DNA of 46,159 bases, taken from positions 1 to 46,159 of the forward strand of contig JAFDBS010000105.1 of assembly GCA_019313185.1 (NCBI GenBank), read 5' to 3'. The notes beneath the pieces were generated by a model, which was not told the origin of the DNA, made no database searches, and saw only the letters and a list, made by a program, of their open reading frames with translations. Position 1 is the first letter of the stretch. Every line of letters begins with the position of its first letter. Both the position numbers and the translations under genes were made by a program. Shown in pieces: positions 10,733-28,298 of this stretch. The stretch is from Deltaproteobacteria bacterium. Lineage in GTDB: Bacteria; Desulfobacterota; Desulfuromonadia; Desulfuromonadales; BM103.

Positions 10733-13273
10733 TCATGCTGATTGCTGGTAACCTACCATTTCATCAAACTGCAAATATTGGTACACCTGGCTTTTCTTCG
10801 GGGCAACTTTTTCTTTATAAACACTCAAGTACTCCTCTGGTGTCGGTAATTTGCCAAGGTTGGCGGTCACTGCGCCAAGTTCTGCCGATCCGAGATAGAC
10901 TTGCGCACCATCGCCAATACGATCATCGAAATTTCGCGTCGATGTTGAAAACATATTGACCCGATCAGGCACACGGGCTTGATTGCCCATACAAAGCGAA
11001 CAACCGGCAATCTCAAGCCGCGCTCCAACCGCACTGAAAACAGAGAAATAGGCCTCTTCTTTTAACTTGTCCTGGTCCATGCGCGTTGGCGGACAAATCC
11101 AGGTACGGACGTTGGGGTTGAATTTCTGACCTCTCCATATTTCCGCCGCCGCCCGGAAGTGACCGATATTGGTCATGCAGGACCCAATAAAAACATCTTG
11201 GATTGAAGTCCCTGCCACCTCACTTAAAAGCTTGACGTCGTCAGGATCATTTGGACACGCCAGAATTGGCTCGGTGATCTCAGACAGATCAATTTCAATG
11301 ACGGCCGCATATTCTGCATTTTGATCAGCTTTGAGCAAATTCGGACTTTTCAACCAGTCTTTGACCGCCGAGATCCTTTTGCGCAAGGTGTCCGGGTGTT
11401 GATAGCCCTCATCAATCATTTTTTCCATCAAAGCCACATTGGAGCGAAGGTAAGTCGACACTGACTCTTCAGACAGCTGAATACAGCCGGCTGCTGCAGA
11501 CCGTTCAGCGGCTGCATCTGTCAATTCAAAAGCCTGCTCAACGGTTAACTCAGGCAACCCTTCCATCTCCAAAATGCGCCCATTGAAGATGTTGATTTTA
11601 TTTTTCTTGGGGACCGTCAACAGCCCTTGTTTGATCGCAAAATAAGGGATCGCGTTGACAGCATCTCGCAAGGTGATGCCGTCATTGAAACTGCCTTTGA
11701 AACGGACCAAAACCGACTCGGGCATATCCAGGGGCATGAAACCCATGGCTCCGGCAAACGCAACCAGGCCGGAACCTGCAGGAAAACTGATGCCGATTGG
11801 AAAACGCGTATGGGAATCACCGCCTGTTCCGACCGTATCAGGCACCAGAAGACGATTCAGCCAGCTGTGAATCACGCCGTCGCCAGGGCGGAGAGCGACC
11901 CCTTCACGTTCGGCAATAAACGCCGGTAATGTTTGGTGCATCTTAATGTCTGCCGGTTTGGGATAGGCAGCCGTGTGGCAGAATGATTGCATAAACATGG
12001 GTGCCTGGAATTTCAGGCAAGCCAATTCTTTAATCTCATCGGCAGTCATGGGGCCGGTTGTATCCTGGGAGCCAACGGTGGTCATTTTTGGTTCACATGC
12101 GGTTCCCGGCAAGACGCCTTCAATACCACAGGCTCGGCCGACCATTTTCTGGGCTAAACTATAGCCTTGTCCAGCCTTGGGTGAAGGATTTTCGGGCCTT
12201 GCAAACAGATCAGTTTCATCCAAGCTCAGAGCATCGCGCGCTTGGACCGTCACTGAACGACCGATAATTAAGGGAATTCGTCCACCCGCACGGAACTCGT
12301 CAGGAACGGTGTTTGGCTTGATTTCAAAAGTTGACACCACCTGGCCATCTTGATTAGTGACTTCACCTGAAGCGGTATTGATGGTGACAATGTCGCCCAT
12401 GTTCAGGTTGGTCACATCCATTTTCAAAGGCAAGGCCCCAGAATCCTGGGCTGTATTAAAGAAAATTGGTGCGATTACGTTACCAATAATCACCCCACCA
12501 CGGCGCTTGTTCGGAACGAACGGAATATCGCTACCAATGTGCCATAGAACGCTATTGCATGCTGATTTCCGCGAAGAACCCGTTCCGACAACGTCGCCGA
12601 CAAAAGCAACCTGATGTCCCTCTTGGCGCCATTTGGCAATTTCGTCAATCCCTCCGGGAAAGCGGGTTTTACCCATGGCCAGAGCATGTAACGGAATATC
12701 GGGACGACTCCAAGCATCTCCAGCCGGTGAGAAATCGTCGGTATTGATCTCACCCTCTACCTTGAAAACCTTCACAGTGATGGTCTGAGGAATTTCTGGT
12801 TTGTTGGTGAACCATTCAGCATTGGCCCAACTTTCAACCACTTTTTGAGCGAACTTATTGTTTTGGGACAACTTGATCACTTGCTGGGCAGCATCATAGA
12901 CATACGTCAGACCGGACAGGGCACATGCAGCATCGTCGGCCAGTTTCGGGTCATTCAAAGAATCGATCAGCGGCTGAACGTTATAACCACCTATCATTGT
13001 GCCTAAAATCTGCACGGCTTTTTGCGCATCGATAAGAGGCGAAGAGTTCGAACCGTTAAGAATACCGGCCAAAAAGTCAGCTTTAACTTCTGCTGCTGGA
13101 TCAACTCCTGGGGAGATACGCTCGGCAAAAAGCTTCATTAAAAACTCTTCTTTGCCTTCGGGTGGTTTTTGCAGAAGAAGACATAGTTCTTTGGTCTGCT
13201 CAGGGTTTAATGGTAAAGCAGGGATTCCCTGTGCGTTTCTCTCCTGTTCATGGCGTAAATACGCATCAATCAT
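10733..13273 (-). CDS. acnB: Aconitate hydratase B (bifunctional aconitase/2-methylisocitrate dehydratase)
   Basis: Full-length AcnB-like protein (MIDAYLRHEQERNAQGIPALPL..., GDVVGTGSSRKSACNSVLWHIG, SCMTNIGHFRAAAEIW, CSLCMGNQARV); AGGAGG before ATG 13273. Confidence 0.97.
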   Translation of the reverse strand: MIDAYLRHEQERNAQGIPALPLNPEQTKELCLLLQKPPEGKEEFLMKLFAERISPGVDPAAEVKADFLAGILNGSNSSPLIDAQKAVQILGTMIGGYNVQPLIDSLNDPKLADDAACALSGLTYVYDAAQQVIKLSQNNKFAQKVVESWANAEWFTNKPEIPQTITVKVFKVEGEINTDDFSPAGDAWSRPDIPLHALAMGKTRFPGGIDEIAKWRQEGHQVAFVGDVVGTGSSRKSACNSVLWHIGSDIPFVPNKRRGGVIIGNVIAPIFFNTAQDSGALPLKMDVTNLNMGDIVTINTASGEVTNQDGQVVSTFEIKPNTVPDEFRAGGRIPLIIGRSVTVQARDALSLDETDLFARPENPSPKAGQGYSLAQKMVGRACGIEGVLPGTACEPKMTTVGSQDTTGPMTADEIKELACLKFQAPMFMQSFCHTAAYPKPADIKMHQTLPAFIAEREGVALRPGDGVIHSWLNRLLVPDTVGTGGDSHTRFPIGISFPAGSGLVAFAGAMGFMPLDMPESVLVRFKGSFNDGITLRDAVNAIPYFAIKQGLLTVPKKNKINIFNGRILEMEGLPELTVEQAFELTDAAAERSAAAGCIQLSEESVSTYLRSNVALMEKMIDEGYQHPDTLRKRISAVKDWLKSPNLLKADQNAEYAAVIEIDLSEITEPILACPNDPDDVKLLSEVAGTSIQDVFIGSCMTNIGHFRAAAEIWRGQKFNPNVRTWICPPTRMDQDKLKEEAYFSVFSAVGARLEIAGCSLCMGNQARVPDRVNMFSTSTRNFDDRIGDGAQVYLGSAELGAVTANLGKLPTPEEYLSVYKEKVAPKKSQVYQYLQFDEMVGYQQSA

Positions 13274-13376: not shown

Positions 13377-13409
13377 GCATACTGTATACGATTTTAAAAT
13401 GCTCGTCAA
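13377..13409 (-). promoter_or_regulatory. Putative acnB promoter with GTATACAGTATGC operator-like box
   Basis: On the minus strand: TTGACG - 15 nt - TATACA, with GTATACAGTATGC over the -10 region. Confidence 0.55.
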
Positions 13410-16900: not shown

Positions 16901-17235
16901 TGCACACTGAAAATCCTGGAGCGATCAACGGGCAAAGTTGATACATGCAGTCAACCATGCCATGTCAAATTGTTTCGCTTGACCATCTTATCATTCTCTA
17001 TTCACATCACAATTTGACCGTTTCGCCAAATTCTCCGCAGTGGTTATGCGCAAGGCCAATGATCCTGACAATCGAGGGCGCGTGCTTGATGCACTTCAGT
17101 TCAAAGAAAACACAGATTGAATTGGCAATGGAATTGAGACTGTGTTGCCGTTCAAACCGGAGGGTGGTTGTCGGCTTTAGACATTGACAGAACCTAGAGA
17201 TTCTGTTAGGTTAGGGTACTTTTTAGGGGTGTCCA

Positions 17236-18612
17236 ATGTCGAAACCGACCATCCTCGTGGTAGATGACGAAGCCTTTTTTCGTCAGCTATTTGCTGACAT
17301 GTTGACTGAAGACGACCGTTATCAGGTCGAAACTGTCAATTCCGGTGAGGATGCTCTAAGACGTCTTGATCAGGGCGGCATAGATGTTGTCATCACCGAT
17401 ATGGTCATGCCAGGCACTTGTGGCCTCGAACTACTGCGCAGGTGCCGCTCATACGACAGCCCACCCGATGTCATTCTTGCAACGGGAAACGCAACAGTCG
17501 AAACTGCCATCCAGGCACTGAAAAGCGGAGCCAGAGACTACCTTGTTAAACCATGCAATCCTGACCAGCTAAGGCACACGGTTCATACCTGCTTGGAACA
17601 AAGACGCTTGTTGAGTGAAAACTCTCTTCTTCGAACTCAAATCCGTCTTTATCAACGCGGACAGCAACTGGCCTCGCAACTTGAAGTTTCTCAATTGTTT
17701 CGGGAAGCGCTCAGCGCTATTGTCTACGAAATTGGTTCGGGGCGTGGCCTGGCCTTCGCATATACTCAAAACGGGATCGAGAACCTCGCTTACACTCCCA
17801 ACTTAACCGAAACAGACGCTAGGGGCCTTGCGGGTTTCCTAGGGCCCCAAATTGATCAATGCAAGACCACAGCGATTTTGACCTCAGACCAGTTCGCTGA
17901 ACTGAAGAACCCGTTTGAAGATTTACGTTCAATCTGGCTGATACCGTTGCAGAGCGCCCAAGATAAGTCCGGCGCCATAGCAATTTGCAATGATCCCGGC
18001 ATCAGCCTGCCTGACTCTCTGCCCACAAAGGAGTTGCAATTCCTCATTGACCAGGTCCTGCTGGGTTTCCAAAACGCATGCCAATATCTGGACGCGCAGG
18101 AACTGATCTATACGGATGATTTAACTGGGCTATACAACCACAGATACCTTCATGTTGCCATGGAACAGGAAATCCGCCGGGCTGAGCGATACGGCCTTGA
18201 ATTTTCTGTCGCATTTATCGATTTAGACCTGTTTAAAAACATTAATGATGCGCATGGGCACTTGGTCGGCAGCAGAATACTCAGAGAAGTTGGTGAACTT
18301 TTGAAGTCATGTATGCGCGATACCGACATGCTCTTTCGCTATGGCGGCGATGAATACACTGCCCTTCTGGTTGAAACCGACAGTCGTGGTGCTAACGTGG
18401 TCACTGATCGACTTCGTGGAAAAATCGCGGAACATATTTTTAAATCAAATGATGGCGTCAATTGCCGCCTAACGGCGACAATCGGCTATGCCACCTACCC
18501 TATTCACGCAACCAGCAAAAACGATCTGATCGATTTGGCTGATAAAGCAATGTATCGAGGCAAACAAGAACGAAACACGACTTGTTCTGCAAATGAAATC
18601 AGGCCCACATAA
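17236..18612 (+). CDS. Response regulator with GGDEF diguanylate cyclase domain
   Basis: Receiver (LVVDDEAFFRQL, ITDMVMPGTCG), spacer, then DDLTGLYNHRYL ... RDTDMLFRYGGDEYTALL (I-site RxxD present). Confidence 0.93.
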   Translation: MSKPTILVVDDEAFFRQLFADMLTEDDRYQVETVNSGEDALRRLDQGGIDVVITDMVMPGTCGLELLRRCRSYDSPPDVILATGNATVETAIQALKSGARDYLVKPCNPDQLRHTVHTCLEQRRLLSENSLLRTQIRLYQRGQQLASQLEVSQLFREALSAIVYEIGSGRGLAFAYTQNGIENLAYTPNLTETDARGLAGFLGPQIDQCKTTAILTSDQFAELKNPFEDLRSIWLIPLQSAQDKSGAIAICNDPGISLPDSLPTKELQFLIDQVLLGFQNACQYLDAQELIYTDDLTGLYNHRYLHVAMEQEIRRAERYGLEFSVAFIDLDLFKNINDAHGHLVGSRILREVGELLKSCMRDTDMLFRYGGDEYTALLVETDSRGANVVTDRLRGKIAEHIFKSNDGVNCRLTATIGYATYPIHATSKNDLIDLADKAMYRGKQERNTTCSANEIRPT

Positions 18613-18740
18613 ATTTTTCGTCAATTTTTCGCTGATCGTAAAAAACAATTTTTCCCAAGCTTCACTGGTTCATTCGCCGATGTTAGTTCAGTGGTTTGAG
18701 TCTGATGTATATTCTTTTACACCAGAAACAATTGTTATAC

Positions 18741-18772
18741 CTTCGCGTTATAATCTCTTCGCGTTATAATCT
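18741..18772. repeat. Perfect 16-bp tandem duplication
   Basis: CTTCGCGTTATAATCT repeated twice back to back (18741-18756, 18757-18772). Confidence 0.95.
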
Positions 18773-19320
18773 GTTTGGGCCCGTTAACCCTGATGAGTAA
18801 ATGGGTTGATCTTGTCTTGACCATCGCAGCTGGGATTTGCCTGACATGAAATTTTCCAGCCAAAAACTTCGTTATGAGTCTTGCCAATTCTTGTGTTAAA
18901 TTCACTCAACCGATACAGCACATTAAGTTTACATAAGGCAGTTTCATGCCATCATTCATTTCGATTCATTGCCGGTTTGGAGTATTTATTCACTAAATCC
19001 GCTGTTGCATACTTTGCTCTGTCAAAAACCTTTGTGAAGATCAAGCAGCATCCTGATGACCTTCACTTTATAAATGACGTGTTCAACTCAGAATGTTGGA
19101 TGGCAAGTTGTCTCGAAAAAGAAGAGATCTTATCAACACGCAACACCAGTCCAGGCTTCAGGTTCAAAGGACCTGACAGATGGTCAGAGCCTACCTGAAA
19201 AATTGAACTCAACAAGTTTAACGGGTTGACGCCCAGTCTAAGAACGAGTAAAAAGCCTAATTCACTCTTAAAGCAACATATAAAAAGTTAGCCATACAAT
19301 GACAGTCTGGAGCAATTACT

Positions 19321-20589
19321 GTGAGCATCACCGGCATTAAAGGCATGAATGACATTTTACCGGGTGAAATAGAAACCTGGCAATTTCTGGAAGAACAGGC
19401 CAGACGCGTTTTTAACGCTTTCGGTTTCTCAGAAATCAGGGTTCCGATTGTTGAAAAAACTGAATTGTTTTCCCGGTCGATTGGTGAGACGACCGACATT
19501 GTCGAAAAGGAAATGTATACGTTCGAAGATAAAGGGGGCACGTCAATAACCTTACGCCCGGAAGGGACAGCCCCGGTCATGCGAGCGTTTATTCAAAATA
19601 AACTTTACAATAAAGACTCAGTCTCTAAACTATATTATCTGGGGCCGATGTTTCGGTATGAAAGACCCCAAAAAGGCCGCTATCGACAATTTTATCAAAT
19701 CGGAGCAGAAATCATTGGAGTTGACGACCCGAAAATTGATGCTCAGATTTTGGCAATGCTTAGCCACTATTTTGAAACGTTACAGGTCCCGGACGTTGAA
19801 CTGCAAATCAACTCCCTAGGCTGTCAAGAATGCCGACCAATCTACCGCAAAGCCCTGATCGATTTCCTTGAATCACAGATTGACTCGCTATGTGAAGACT
19901 GTGTACGCCGTTATCAGACTAACCCTTTGAGAACACTGGACTGCAAATCAACCGGATGCAAAAACGCAACCCTTTCCGCACCGGATATGCTTGGACATCT
20001 TTGTTCTGGCTGTAAAGCACATTTCGATTGCCTGTGCGAGTACCTTCATAGCCTTTCGGTCCCTTATCAAATTAATCCTCGTATGGTCCGTGGCCTTGAT
20101 TATTACACCAAAACCACTTTTGAAATGGTCACTAGCACCCTTGGCGCACAAAATGCCGTAGCCGCTGGCGGCCGCTACGACAAGTTGATCAGTGATCTCG
20201 GTGGCCCTGCTCTGCCGGGCATAGGATTTGCCGTTGGCCTAGAACGTCTGGCCTTGATGCTAAACGAGCAGTGCTCTCGTCTTCCACGCCTGGAACTGTT
20301 TATTGCAACAATCGGCGAAAAGGCATCAAGAATGGGTCTGACGCTGTTGACCCAGTTGCAACGCCAAGGGATAAGGGCTGATATGGATTATAGCGGCAAA
20401 AGTCTGAAGGCCCAACTCCGTAGAGCTGACAAGCTTGCAGCAAAGCGGGTGTTGATCGTCGGCGAAGAAGAACTACAGAAAGGTCTAGGCCAGTTGCGTT
20501 ACATGGATGAGAGCAGCCAACGAGAAGTCAGCTTAAATGGACTGGAGAAAAGTCTTGCCGAAGAAATTTCTCTTAACTTGACGCCTTGA
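19321..20589 (+). CDS. hisS: Histidyl-tRNA synthetase
   Basis: GTG start; GMNDILPGE, RPEGTAPVMRAF, GPMFRYERPQKGRYRQF, MVRGLDYYTKTTFE, AAGGRYDKLI. Confidence 0.97.
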   Translation: MSITGIKGMNDILPGEIETWQFLEEQARRVFNAFGFSEIRVPIVEKTELFSRSIGETTDIVEKEMYTFEDKGGTSITLRPEGTAPVMRAFIQNKLYNKDSVSKLYYLGPMFRYERPQKGRYRQFYQIGAEIIGVDDPKIDAQILAMLSHYFETLQVPDVELQINSLGCQECRPIYRKALIDFLESQIDSLCEDCVRRYQTNPLRTLDCKSTGCKNATLSAPDMLGHLCSGCKAHFDCLCEYLHSLSVPYQINPRMVRGLDYYTKTTFEMVTSTLGAQNAVAAGGRYDKLISDLGGPALPGIGFAVGLERLALMLNEQCSRLPRLELFIATIGEKASRMGLTLLTQLQRQGIRADMDYSGKSLKAQLRRADKLAAKRVLIVGEEELQKGLGQLRYMDESSQREVSLNGLEKSLAEEISLNLTP

Positions 20590-23211: not shown

Positions 23212-23245
23212 TTGACACCCCGAAGGCCATTTGTATACTGTATAC
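23212..23245 (+). promoter_or_regulatory. icd promoter with palindromic operator-like box
   Basis: TTGACA (23212-23217) - 16 nt - TATACT (23234-23239); GTATACTGTATAC at 23233-23245 covers the -10. Confidence 0.75.
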
Positions 23246-23441: not shown

Positions 23442-25664
23442 ATGTCAGCTAAGATTATCTGGACAGAAATTGACGAGGCCCCGGCGTTGGCCACTTATGC
23501 TTTTCTGCCGATCGTGCAGGCGTATACTAAAGGCACGGGGATCGAGGTCGGAACACAAGACATTTCCTTGTCCGGTCGCATTATTGCCAACTTCCCTGAA
23601 AACCTGACTGAAGACCAAAGAATTCCTGACCATTTGTCACAGCTAGGCGAATTGGTCAAAACCCCTGAGGCCAATGTCATAAAGCTTCCCAATATCAGCG
23701 CTTCAATCCCCCAGTTGCAGGCAGCGATCAAGGAATTGCGCTCGAAGGGTTATGATGTGCCCGAATATCCCGAGGAAGCAAAGACTGATGAAGAAAAGGC
23801 TATTCAAGAAAGATATTCGAAAGTCTTGGGTTCGGCAGTAAATCCCGTTTTACGAGAAGGAAACTCCGATCGCCGGGCAGCGGCTTCTGTCAAAAAATTT
23901 GCCCAAAAGAACCCTCACAAGATGATGAAACCATGGCCTAAAGTTTCCCAATGCCGCGTAGCTCATATGGACAGTGGTGACTTCTTCGAAAGTGAAAAGT
24001 CGATCACCATGGATCAAGCTGACACGGTAAAAATTCAATTTGTCGATGAAGGCGGCAGCATAACTGTTATGAAAGATAGCCTTGCCCTTCAAAAAGACGA
24101 GGTCATCGACAGTTCAACCATGAACGTCAAGAAGCTGCGTGCTTTTTTTGAAGCCACTGCTGCCGAAGCCAAAGAAAAAGGGGTCCTGCTTTCACTGCAT
24201 ATGAAAGCAACCATGATGAAGATCTCTGATCCAATCATCTTTGGACATTGCGTTTCTGTTTATTTCAAGGACGCCTTGGAAAAACATGCCGAAACTTTGA
24301 AAAGTATCGGGGCCAATCCAAACTATGGCATGGCTGATATTTTGGCAAAACTCGACAAGCTGCCGGCAGATAAAAAAGCTGAGATCGAGGCCGACATCAA
24401 TGCCTGTTACGCGACGCAACCAGCTTTGGCAATGGTTGACTCGCGTAAGAACATTACTAACTTGCATGTACCGAATGATGTTATCGTCGATGCTTCGATG
24501 CCGAACGTCGTCAGGGACGGTGGCAAGATGTGGAATCTTCAAGATGAACTTCAAGATACCATTGCTATGGTACCTGATCGCTGCTACGCCACCACCTATA
24601 GAGAAATCATTGAAGACTGCAAACGTCACGGCCAATTTGACCCGGCAACGATGGGCAGTGTTTCCAATGTCGGTTTGATGGCTCAAAAAGCAGAAGAATA
24701 TGGCTCTCACGACAAAACCTTTACTGCGCCATCAAACGGTAAGTTCCAAATCGTCGACTCTTCCGGCAATGTTCTTCTAGAACAAATCGTTCAAACAGGT
24801 GATATTTACCGTTCTTCTCAAACCAAAGACATTCCAATCAAAGACTGGATTAAACTCGCGGTAGCTCGCGCAAAGGACTCCGGTGAGCCAGTTGTGTTCT
24901 GGCTTGATGAGCAACGCGGCCATGACACAGAAATCATCAAAAAGATCAACAAGTATCTCCCCGAACTTGACACCACAGGCTTGGACATTCAAATTTTGCC
25001 GCCTGTCGAAGCCATGAAGTTCTCGCTAGAGAGAATCAGGCGCGGGGAAAATACCATCGCCGCCACAGGCAATGTCCTCAGAGACTACCTAACCGACCTC
25101 TTCCCCATTCTGGAACTTGGCACAAGTGCCCGCATGCTGTCGATTGTCCCGCTGATTAACGGTGGTGGTTTGTTCGAAACTGGAGCTGGTGGTTCTGCGC
25201 CGAAACACGTTCAACAGTTCCTCAAGGAAGGACATCTACGTTGGGACTCGCTTGGTGAGTATTGCGCATTGGTTCCCTCGTTAGAGCATGTCGCTAAAAA
25301 TTACAATAACCAAAAAGCAGCTGTTCTGGCGGAAACCTTGGATACTGCAATTGGTAAATATCTGGAAAATCAAAAATTGCCTTCTCGAAAGGTTAAAGAG
25401 ATCGACAATCGCGGCAGCAGTTTCTGGCTTTCTGTTTACTGGGCACAGGCTTTGGCGGAGCAGGACAAGGACACCGAGCTAAAAGCAAGGTTTGTATCCG
25501 TTGCTGAAAAACTTGATGAGAATGCCGAAAAAATAGACCAAGAGCTGATTGACTGCCAGGGGGAAGCGGTGGATGTTGGTGGATATTTCCGTCCAGATCC
25601 CACCATGGCTAGTAAAGCTATGCGGCCCAGCCAAACCTACAACAGCATTATTGACACTATTTAG
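23442..25664 (+). CDS. icd: Isocitrate dehydrogenase, monomeric NADP-dependent type
   Basis: ~740 aa, monomeric IDH signature stretches ([58 protein letters not shown]). Confidence 0.97.
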
Positions 25665-26856: not shown

Positions 26857-26869
26857 GTATGCTGAGTAC
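26857..26869 (+). promoter_or_regulatory. Candidate operator-like box upstream of kor operon
   Basis: GTATGCTGAGTAC, 10/13 identical to the icd box GTATACTGTATAC; 75 nt before korD ATG. Confidence 0.35.
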
Positions 26870-26943: not shown

Positions 26944-27135
26944 ATGAGTGGTGCCAGACTCGAAGTTATCGAGCGCAACTGCAAAGGTTGCAGTATCTGC
27001 GTCGAATTCTGTCCCAAGAACGTCCTGGAGATGGACGTGTTCCTGGTAACAGTTCCAAGGCCGGAAGACTGCATCAAGTGCATGCAATGTGAACTGCTTT
27101 GCCCGGACTTCGCTATCAAGGTCCATGACGAGTAA
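26944..27135 (+). CDS. korD: 2-oxoglutarate:ferredoxin oxidoreductase delta (4Fe-4S ferredoxin) subunit
   Basis: NCKGCSICVEFCPKNVLEM ... CIKCMQCELLCPDFAI; first gene of kor cluster. Confidence 0.93.
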   Translation: MSGARLEVIERNCKGCSICVEFCPKNVLEMDVFLVTVPRPEDCIKCMQCELLCPDFAIKVHDE

Positions 27136-27164
27136 TCAATTTTTAGCATAGAAGGAGAGTGAAC

Positions 27165-28298
27165 GTGGCCAAGAAAGTTGCTCTGTTACAGGGGAACGAA
27201 GCGTGTGCATTGGGAGCTGTCTATGCAGGCGCCAAGTTTTTCGGTGGGTACCCTATTACTCCATCGACCGAAGTTGCTGAGGTTCTCTCAGCAGAATTAC
27301 CAAAAGTCGGCGGTAAATTCATTCAAATGGAAGACGAGATTGGCGCTATGGCGGCGATCATAGGCGCATCACTGACCGGTGCCAAATCAATCACCGCGAC
27401 CTCAGGTCCTGGTGTTTCGTTGAAACAAGAATTAATCGGCTATGCTTGCATAGCAGAAACTCCATGCGTCATCATCAATGTCATGCGTGGTGGGCCGTCA
27501 ACTGGTATGCCGACGGGTCCCGGCCAATCTGATGTCATGCAGGCTCGCTGGGGAACGCATGGTGATCATGCAGCGATCGCCTTAGTGCCGAACTCATGCC
27601 AAGAAATTTTTGAGGAAACTGTACGTGCCTTCAATCTTTCAGAAAAATATCGTATGCCAGTTCAAGTGTTATTTGACGAAATCGTCGGGCACATGCGTGA
27701 GCGTATTGTATTCCCAGAGCCTGGTGAGCTTGAAATAATTGACCGTCAACCTCCAAGTGTCTCACCTGCGGATTACAAGCCATATGATTCGTCAAAAGGC
27801 CAAGTGCCTCCACTGGCTGCTTTTGGATCTGGCTATAAATTTCATGTAACTGGATTGAATAAAGCTGACGATGGTTTCCCAACCACCAAAGCAGAACTGG
27901 TTGATGCGGAAGAGCGTCGTCAAATTGATAAAGTTATGGATAATGTCGATGATATCCTTAAGAACGAGGAATATCTCACTGATGATGCCGAAGTTATCAT
28001 TTGGGCATATGGTTCGACTTCCCGCTCGGCCCGATATGCTGTCAATAAACTACGCGAAGATGGCATCAAAGCGGGCCTTTTCCGCCCTCTTACAATCTGG
28101 CCATTTCCAGAAGCGAGAACGGCTGAACTGGCAAAACAGTGCAAAGCAATTATTGTTGCCGAAATGAATCTTGGTCAGATGATTTACGAGGTTGAACGTG
28201 TATCCAAAGGTGACTGTGCGATCGGTGGTGTCTTCCGTGTTGACGGTGAGCCAATCAATCCTGGACAGATCGTCGATAAGGTTAAGGAGGTTCTGTAA
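27165..28298 (+). CDS. korA: 2-oxoglutarate:ferredoxin oxidoreductase alpha subunit
   Basis: GNEACALGAVYAGAKFFGGYPITPSTEVAE, QMEDEIGAMAAIIGASLTGAKSITATSGPGVSL; GTG start at 27165 better placed from GGAG than 27159. Confidence 0.95.
   Translation: MAKKVALLQGNEACALGAVYAGAKFFGGYPITPSTEVAEVLSAELPKVGGKFIQMEDEIGAMAAIIGASLTGAKSITATSGPGVSLKQELIGYACIAETPCVIINVMRGGPSTGMPTGPGQSDVMQARWGTHGDHAAIALVPNSCQEIFEETVRAFNLSEKYRMPVQVLFDEIVGHMRERIVFPEPGELEIIDRQPPSVSPADYKPYDSSKGQVPPLAAFGSGYKFHVTGLNKADDGFPTTKAELVDAEERRQIDKVMDNVDDILKNEEYLTDDAEVIIWAYGSTSRSARYAVNKLREDGIKAGLFRPLTIWPFPEARTAELAKQCKAIIVAEMNLGQMIYEVERVSKGDCAIGGVFRVDGEPINPGQIVDKVKEVL

Follow-up and report, generated by a model that had tools for sequence, protein, structure and literature searches.

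A palindromic box overlapping the icd promoter, GTATACTGTATAC, is highly likely to serve as operator for a self-regulating GntR/FCD transcription factor that governs a regulon for the TCA cycle and energy conservation. This regulon would comprise gltA, acnB, icd, sdh, nuo, atp and an SfrB-like NADPH dehydrogenase gene. The box was identified in a 46,159-nucleotide stretch of a Deltaproteobacteria bacterium draft genome (hereafter the window), and its proposed regulator is encoded on contig C180 and is itself preceded by an exact copy of the box.

Direct reading of the window bore out the sigma-70-like icd promoter described in the initial annotation, in which TTGACA and TATACT are separated by a 16-nt spacer, and a promoter scan gave it 11 of 12 matches to the sigma-70 consensus. 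The box encloses the -10 hexamer and is, as had been described, an exact 6-1-6 palindrome of two GTATAC half-sites around a single central base (Table 1). When chance expectations were calculated from the window's own dinucleotide composition, one exact box was observed against 0.00013 expected, and two boxes with no more than one mismatch against 0.0095 expected. The second of these two is the very similar box that had been reported upstream of acnB, which proved to be real and carries a single mismatch; here the acnB start was set at an internal ATG (13273). The weaker box reported upstream of korD is also present, but it has three mismatches, and since 5.2 such matches are expected by chance per window, it lies at background level in this genome. 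Boxes with two mismatches or fewer occur at the corresponding place, ∼320-330 bp before korA, in 8 of 30 relatives. We therefore rejected korD as a firm target here, while it is a possible target in relatives.

Table 1. Coordinates of promoter elements, boxes and genes in the window
Feature	Position	Strand	Remarks
acnB, aconitate hydratase B	10733..13273	-	TIGR00117 and NF006690 above cutoff
acnB operator box (putative), GCATACTGTATAC on the + strand, GTATACAGTATGC in the acnB sense	13377..13389	.	One mismatch; 25/28 acnB orthologs
-35-like TTGACG, acnB promoter	13404..13409	-	TTGAC 20-22 bp before box in 25/25 distinct acnB promoters
-35 hexamer TTGACA, icd promoter	23212..23217	+	Box distance 20-21 bp in 29/29 distinct icd promoters
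icd operator box (putative), GTATACTGTATAC	23233..23245	.	Exact 6-1-6 palindrome, two GTATAC; kept in 29/29 readable icd orthologs
-10 hexamer TATACT, icd promoter, within box	23234..23239	+	Sequence reading, promoter scan
icd, monomeric NADP-dependent isocitrate dehydrogenase	23442..25664	+	TIGR00178 above curated cutoff
Weak, uncertain box upstream of korD, GTATGCTGAGTAC	26857..26869	.	Three mismatches; background level here
korD, small ferredoxin-type subunit heading 2-oxoglutarate oxidoreductase genes; possible target	26944..27135	+	
korA	27159-28298		

A search of the whole 2.47 Mb draft genome (86% complete) returned four exact boxes, compared with 0.007 expected, and 11 boxes with at most one mismatch, compared with 0.5 expected, almost all of which lie upstream of TCA or energy genes. 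At the two-mismatch level, 30 boxes were observed genome-wide versus 16 expected; these are mostly background, and they were left out because their number is close to the chance figure. The boxed TCA genes are icd, acnB, gltA and sdhC, with the flavoprotein subunit gene located behind sdhC, so the enrichment upstream of gltA and succinate dehydrogenase genes that had been put forward as a check of a dedicated TCA-cycle regulon was indeed found. This part of the proposal holds, but the regulon is wider than the TCA cycle, as boxes also precede genes for complex I (rnhA-nuoABC), ATP synthase (the b-subunit gene and atpI-atpB) and the SfrB-like NADPH dehydrogenase, where the SfrB-like and atpI labels were assigned by sequence reading. 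One hit within a thioredoxin-like coding sequence (L006) was taken as background. The stretch carrying the atpI box ends both contigs C5 and C199 in near-identical form (L005 and L011), which is probably an assembly overlap or a repeat, and the two were treated as most likely a single site.

The boxed genes also include one for a protein with GntR and FCD domains (locus L004, 1548-2258), where the exact box lies 47 bp before the start codon. The N-terminal GntR winged helix-turn-helix (PF00392, 68 bits) and the C-terminal FCD domain (PF07729, 99 bits) both score above their gathering thresholds, and an AlphaFold model of the protein (pLDDT 86) features the FCD-regulator fold, with a Brucella GntR protein, PmiR, McbR and VanR among its nearest solved structures. 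A sequence search of the PDB also ranked PmiR first (E = 2e-30). None of the named NCBIfam GntR equivalogs (PhnR, PdhR, GlcC, LldR and others) reached its cutoff, the best being phnR_burk with 148 versus 271.5 bits. This FCD-type GntR protein is very probably the regulator, tied to the box by position and co-occurrence, and the earlier guess of a GntR/FCD-type operator has thereby gained a candidate regulator whose own promoter also carries the box. In several genomes the regulator gene is divergent from a TrkA-type potassium channel gene (L004, 375-1391; L319-L321), and the box between these genes might act on the channel gene too.

To relatives of this bacterium the same arrangement extends. 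Genes related to the regulator at 59-86% identity turned up on 50 named contigs, and most of 40 relatives have close orthologs. Of 80 regulator loci, 78 carry a box with no more than one mismatch 43-123 bp upstream of the gene, which places an operator in the regulator's own promoter and points to autoregulation. Some of these loci represent the same genome reached twice via two collections; the number of distinct promoters counted was 76. Of the two boxless loci, L075 lies at a contig edge and L092 holds the most distant homolog. Across 300 kb around regulator genes, all 51 boxes are at a regulator promoter, while the reversed pattern gave 0. Where the 5' end of the ortholog could be read, a box with no more than one mismatch precedes icd in 29/29, acnB in 25/28 and gltA in 29/30, and the three boxless acnB orthologs belong to genomes that lack the regulator. 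Conservation at icd and acnB orthologs had been proposed as a check, and together with the genome-wide counts these figures exclude both outcomes named as refuting the operator, background frequency and non-conservation. Inspection of seven further genomes (Geothermobacter hydrogeniphilus, Malonomonas rubra, Geobacter sp. OR-1, Geobacter argillaceus and three large-contig relatives), in which genes were named by eye, showed recurring boxes at the regulator, icd, acnB, gltA, nuoA, ATP synthase, sfrB-like and sdhC genes, with single cases at fumarase, pyruvate:ferredoxin oxidoreductase and gap. Boxes in Geobacterales mark the same targets.

The presence of boxes follows that of the regulator. 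Across 194 genomes of the class, the 164 that encode the regulator carry 6-19 boxes each (median 11), compared with a median of 1.5 boxes in the 30 that do not (Mann-Whitney P = 1.3e-15, a value that overstates the number of independent events because the genomes are related). A reversed control pattern showed no difference (median 2 with the regulator versus 2.5 without). Genome G024, where the regulator is absent, has one box, and in G022, where it is also absent, the promoters are recognisable and the boxes have decayed to two mismatches at icd and to half-sites only at acnB and gltA. The half-site surviving upstream of gltA in G022 (L326), TTGTATACAA, forms a perfect palindrome of 10 bp, as in FadR-subfamily sites of the 2-nt type, and reflects either decay or the site of another FCD regulator. 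Three genomes (G029, G064 and G152) carry 8-13 boxes, and searches of these for a regulator ortholog yielded only paralogs of ∼30% identity; assembly dropout of the regulator is possible in these cases.

The sign of regulation was assessed from the position of the box relative to promoter motifs in the sequence. In 68 of 76 regulator promoters, the start of TTGAC is 12 bp ahead of the box, and at icd and acnB the motif precedes the box by the distances given in Table 1. The box thus covers the -10 region or the spacer at all three promoters, which fits and suggests repression there. A regulator dimer probably binds GTATAC-N-GTATAC, a protein-DNA contact that we infer, and a dimer in this position at icd, acnB and its own promoter would exclude RNA polymerase, leading to repression and negative autoregulation. 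The geometry at gltA is different: TTGAC starts 21-23 bp after the start of the box in 28/29 promoters, which centres the box near -51, and the nuoA boxes of several genomes are likewise located upstream of the -35 element. Simple repression by a dimeric regulator, which the initial annotation had suggested from the icd box, therefore fits icd, acnB and the regulator but should not be presumed for gltA and nuoA; at these two, a dimer just upstream of -35 could activate or modulate transcription. It is quite possible, if short of probable, that the regulator plays a dual role instead of being purely repressive, activating gltA and nuoA and repressing its other targets. In the case of the GntR protein HypR, an upstream site has been likened to that of the activator CitO (PMC6608401). 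However, box position alone is no proof of activation, and HgtR, whose reported targets include both genes, has been described as repressing. Most gltA promoters (L171-L200) feature a second conserved element, about TTGTTAGAACNNTATTTGG, downstream of -35, which may be the -10 region or a site for another factor.

HgtR (GSU3364) of Geobacter sulfurreducens also bears on the identity of the protein that binds the box. It is described as a global hydrogen-induced regulator (PMC7726332, PMC7894505, PMC8691401), and is reported to lower gltA, atpG and nuoA (PMC7726332), all three of which are boxed here. These overlapping targets mean that the box could have another binder, and the many boxes in G029, G064 and G152, where a GntR ortholog was not found, would also fit an operator that belongs wholly or partly to HgtR, or to another protein distinct from the GntR factor. 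We regard this as unlikely, as the GntR gene has the box at its own promoter in nearly every locus and box number follows the presence of that gene. A candidate hgtR locus (L321) contains a ribbon-helix-helix-like ORF of 58-73 amino acids (16988-17209, minus strand) that adjoins cysS, along with a gene encoding a sigma-54 activator with an iron-only hydrogenase domain (17407-19791, minus strand), a candidate hydrogen sensor. In one genome, only a few genes separate the cysS-adjacent ORF and the sigma-54 activator gene from selA and from the gene for the GntR protein. Going by gene numbering, this would be the hgtR locus, in which case HgtR would be a different protein from the GntR/FCD regulator, as appears to be the case. 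The presumed HgtR, identified by neighbourhood and this numbering, is a small protein whose Pfam matches all fall below the gathering cutoff. It is very improbable that the icd box is merely an unusually good extended -10 element whose palindrome is a regulator-free by-product of promoter selection: such selection alone could keep part of the box at icd and acnB, where the -10 lies within or overlaps it, but the second GTATAC is equally invariant outside the -10, the corresponding box at gltA stands upstream of -35, and genomes without the regulator keep their promoters while the dyad decays.

The GntR/FCD regulator was compared with known systems. HgtR is a global regulator from the same bacterial class with the overlapping targets gltA, atpG and nuoA reported for it, but it is described as hydrogen-induced and is presumably of the ribbon-helix-helix-like type. 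GSU0514, a G. sulfurreducens regulator of the TCA-linked genes sucC and sucD (PMC7894505), is from the same class but belongs to the IclR family. At the regulon level, there is a resemblance to the expanded PdhR regulon of Shewanellaceae, in which a GntR-family protein controls TCA genes including sdhCDAB and gltA (PMC5343134), although PdhR comes from a different lineage, matches the regulator only weakly in sequence (E = 8e-14, under the cutoff) and has a FadR-subfamily operator whose GT and AC are 3 nt apart. AlkR/VanR and PmiR of Pseudomonas aeruginosa share the FCD-type GntR architecture, with PmiR ∼33% identical to the regulator, but have different targets. The AlkR site, ATTGTCAGACAAT, is a 6-1-6 palindrome over -10 regions, a layout comparable to that seen here, with ATTGTC rather than GTATAC as its half-site. 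FadR-subfamily operators are palindromic TKGT/ACMA boxes in which GT and AC are 2-3 nt apart. Each GTATAC half fits the GT-N2-AC form of this consensus, but the conserved unit here is longer, with two halves separated by one base, and the whole dyad does not fit at its centre. A literature search covering Desulfuromonadia found neither a GTATAC operator nor a GntR regulator of the TCA cycle; the primary description of HgtR, a possible earlier account of the box, lay outside this search.

The metal ligands of the classical FCD pocket are an Asp and three His residues. Across 26 orthologs of the regulator, H135, H139 and H183 are invariant, whereas the final classical His varies and a His takes the place of the Asp. 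PmiR senses 2-methylisocitrate, according to the title of the paper describing it, and as PmiR is also the top PDB sequence match, a tricarboxylate effector is a reasonable guess and no more; put more broadly, the guess is a tricarboxylate or dicarboxylate of the TCA cycle. A fuller proposal is tentative and, taken whole, rather doubtful: that the GntR/FCD protein, as distinct from HgtR, has master control over the TCA cycle, complex I and ATP synthase throughout Desulfuromonadia, acting as repressor of acnB, icd and its own gene and as activator of gltA and nuo from around -51, and sensing a tricarboxylate via an altered FCD pocket.

Judged from its genes and sites, the regulon appears to be of the autoregulated GntR/FCD type, an already known kind, while its double-GTATAC operator seems unusual. 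The regulator occurs in most Desulfuromonas- and Geobacter-type bacteria, and the box is very probably its docking site. Many of these bacteria live on acetate oxidation through the TCA cycle, and HgtR and GSU0514 are the only TCA regulators named for them in the literature surveyed. One self-regulated GntR protein with around ten sharply defined targets would make the joint setting of TCA flux, complex I and ATP synthase accessible to testing, for which the relatives that have neither regulator nor boxes are a natural control.
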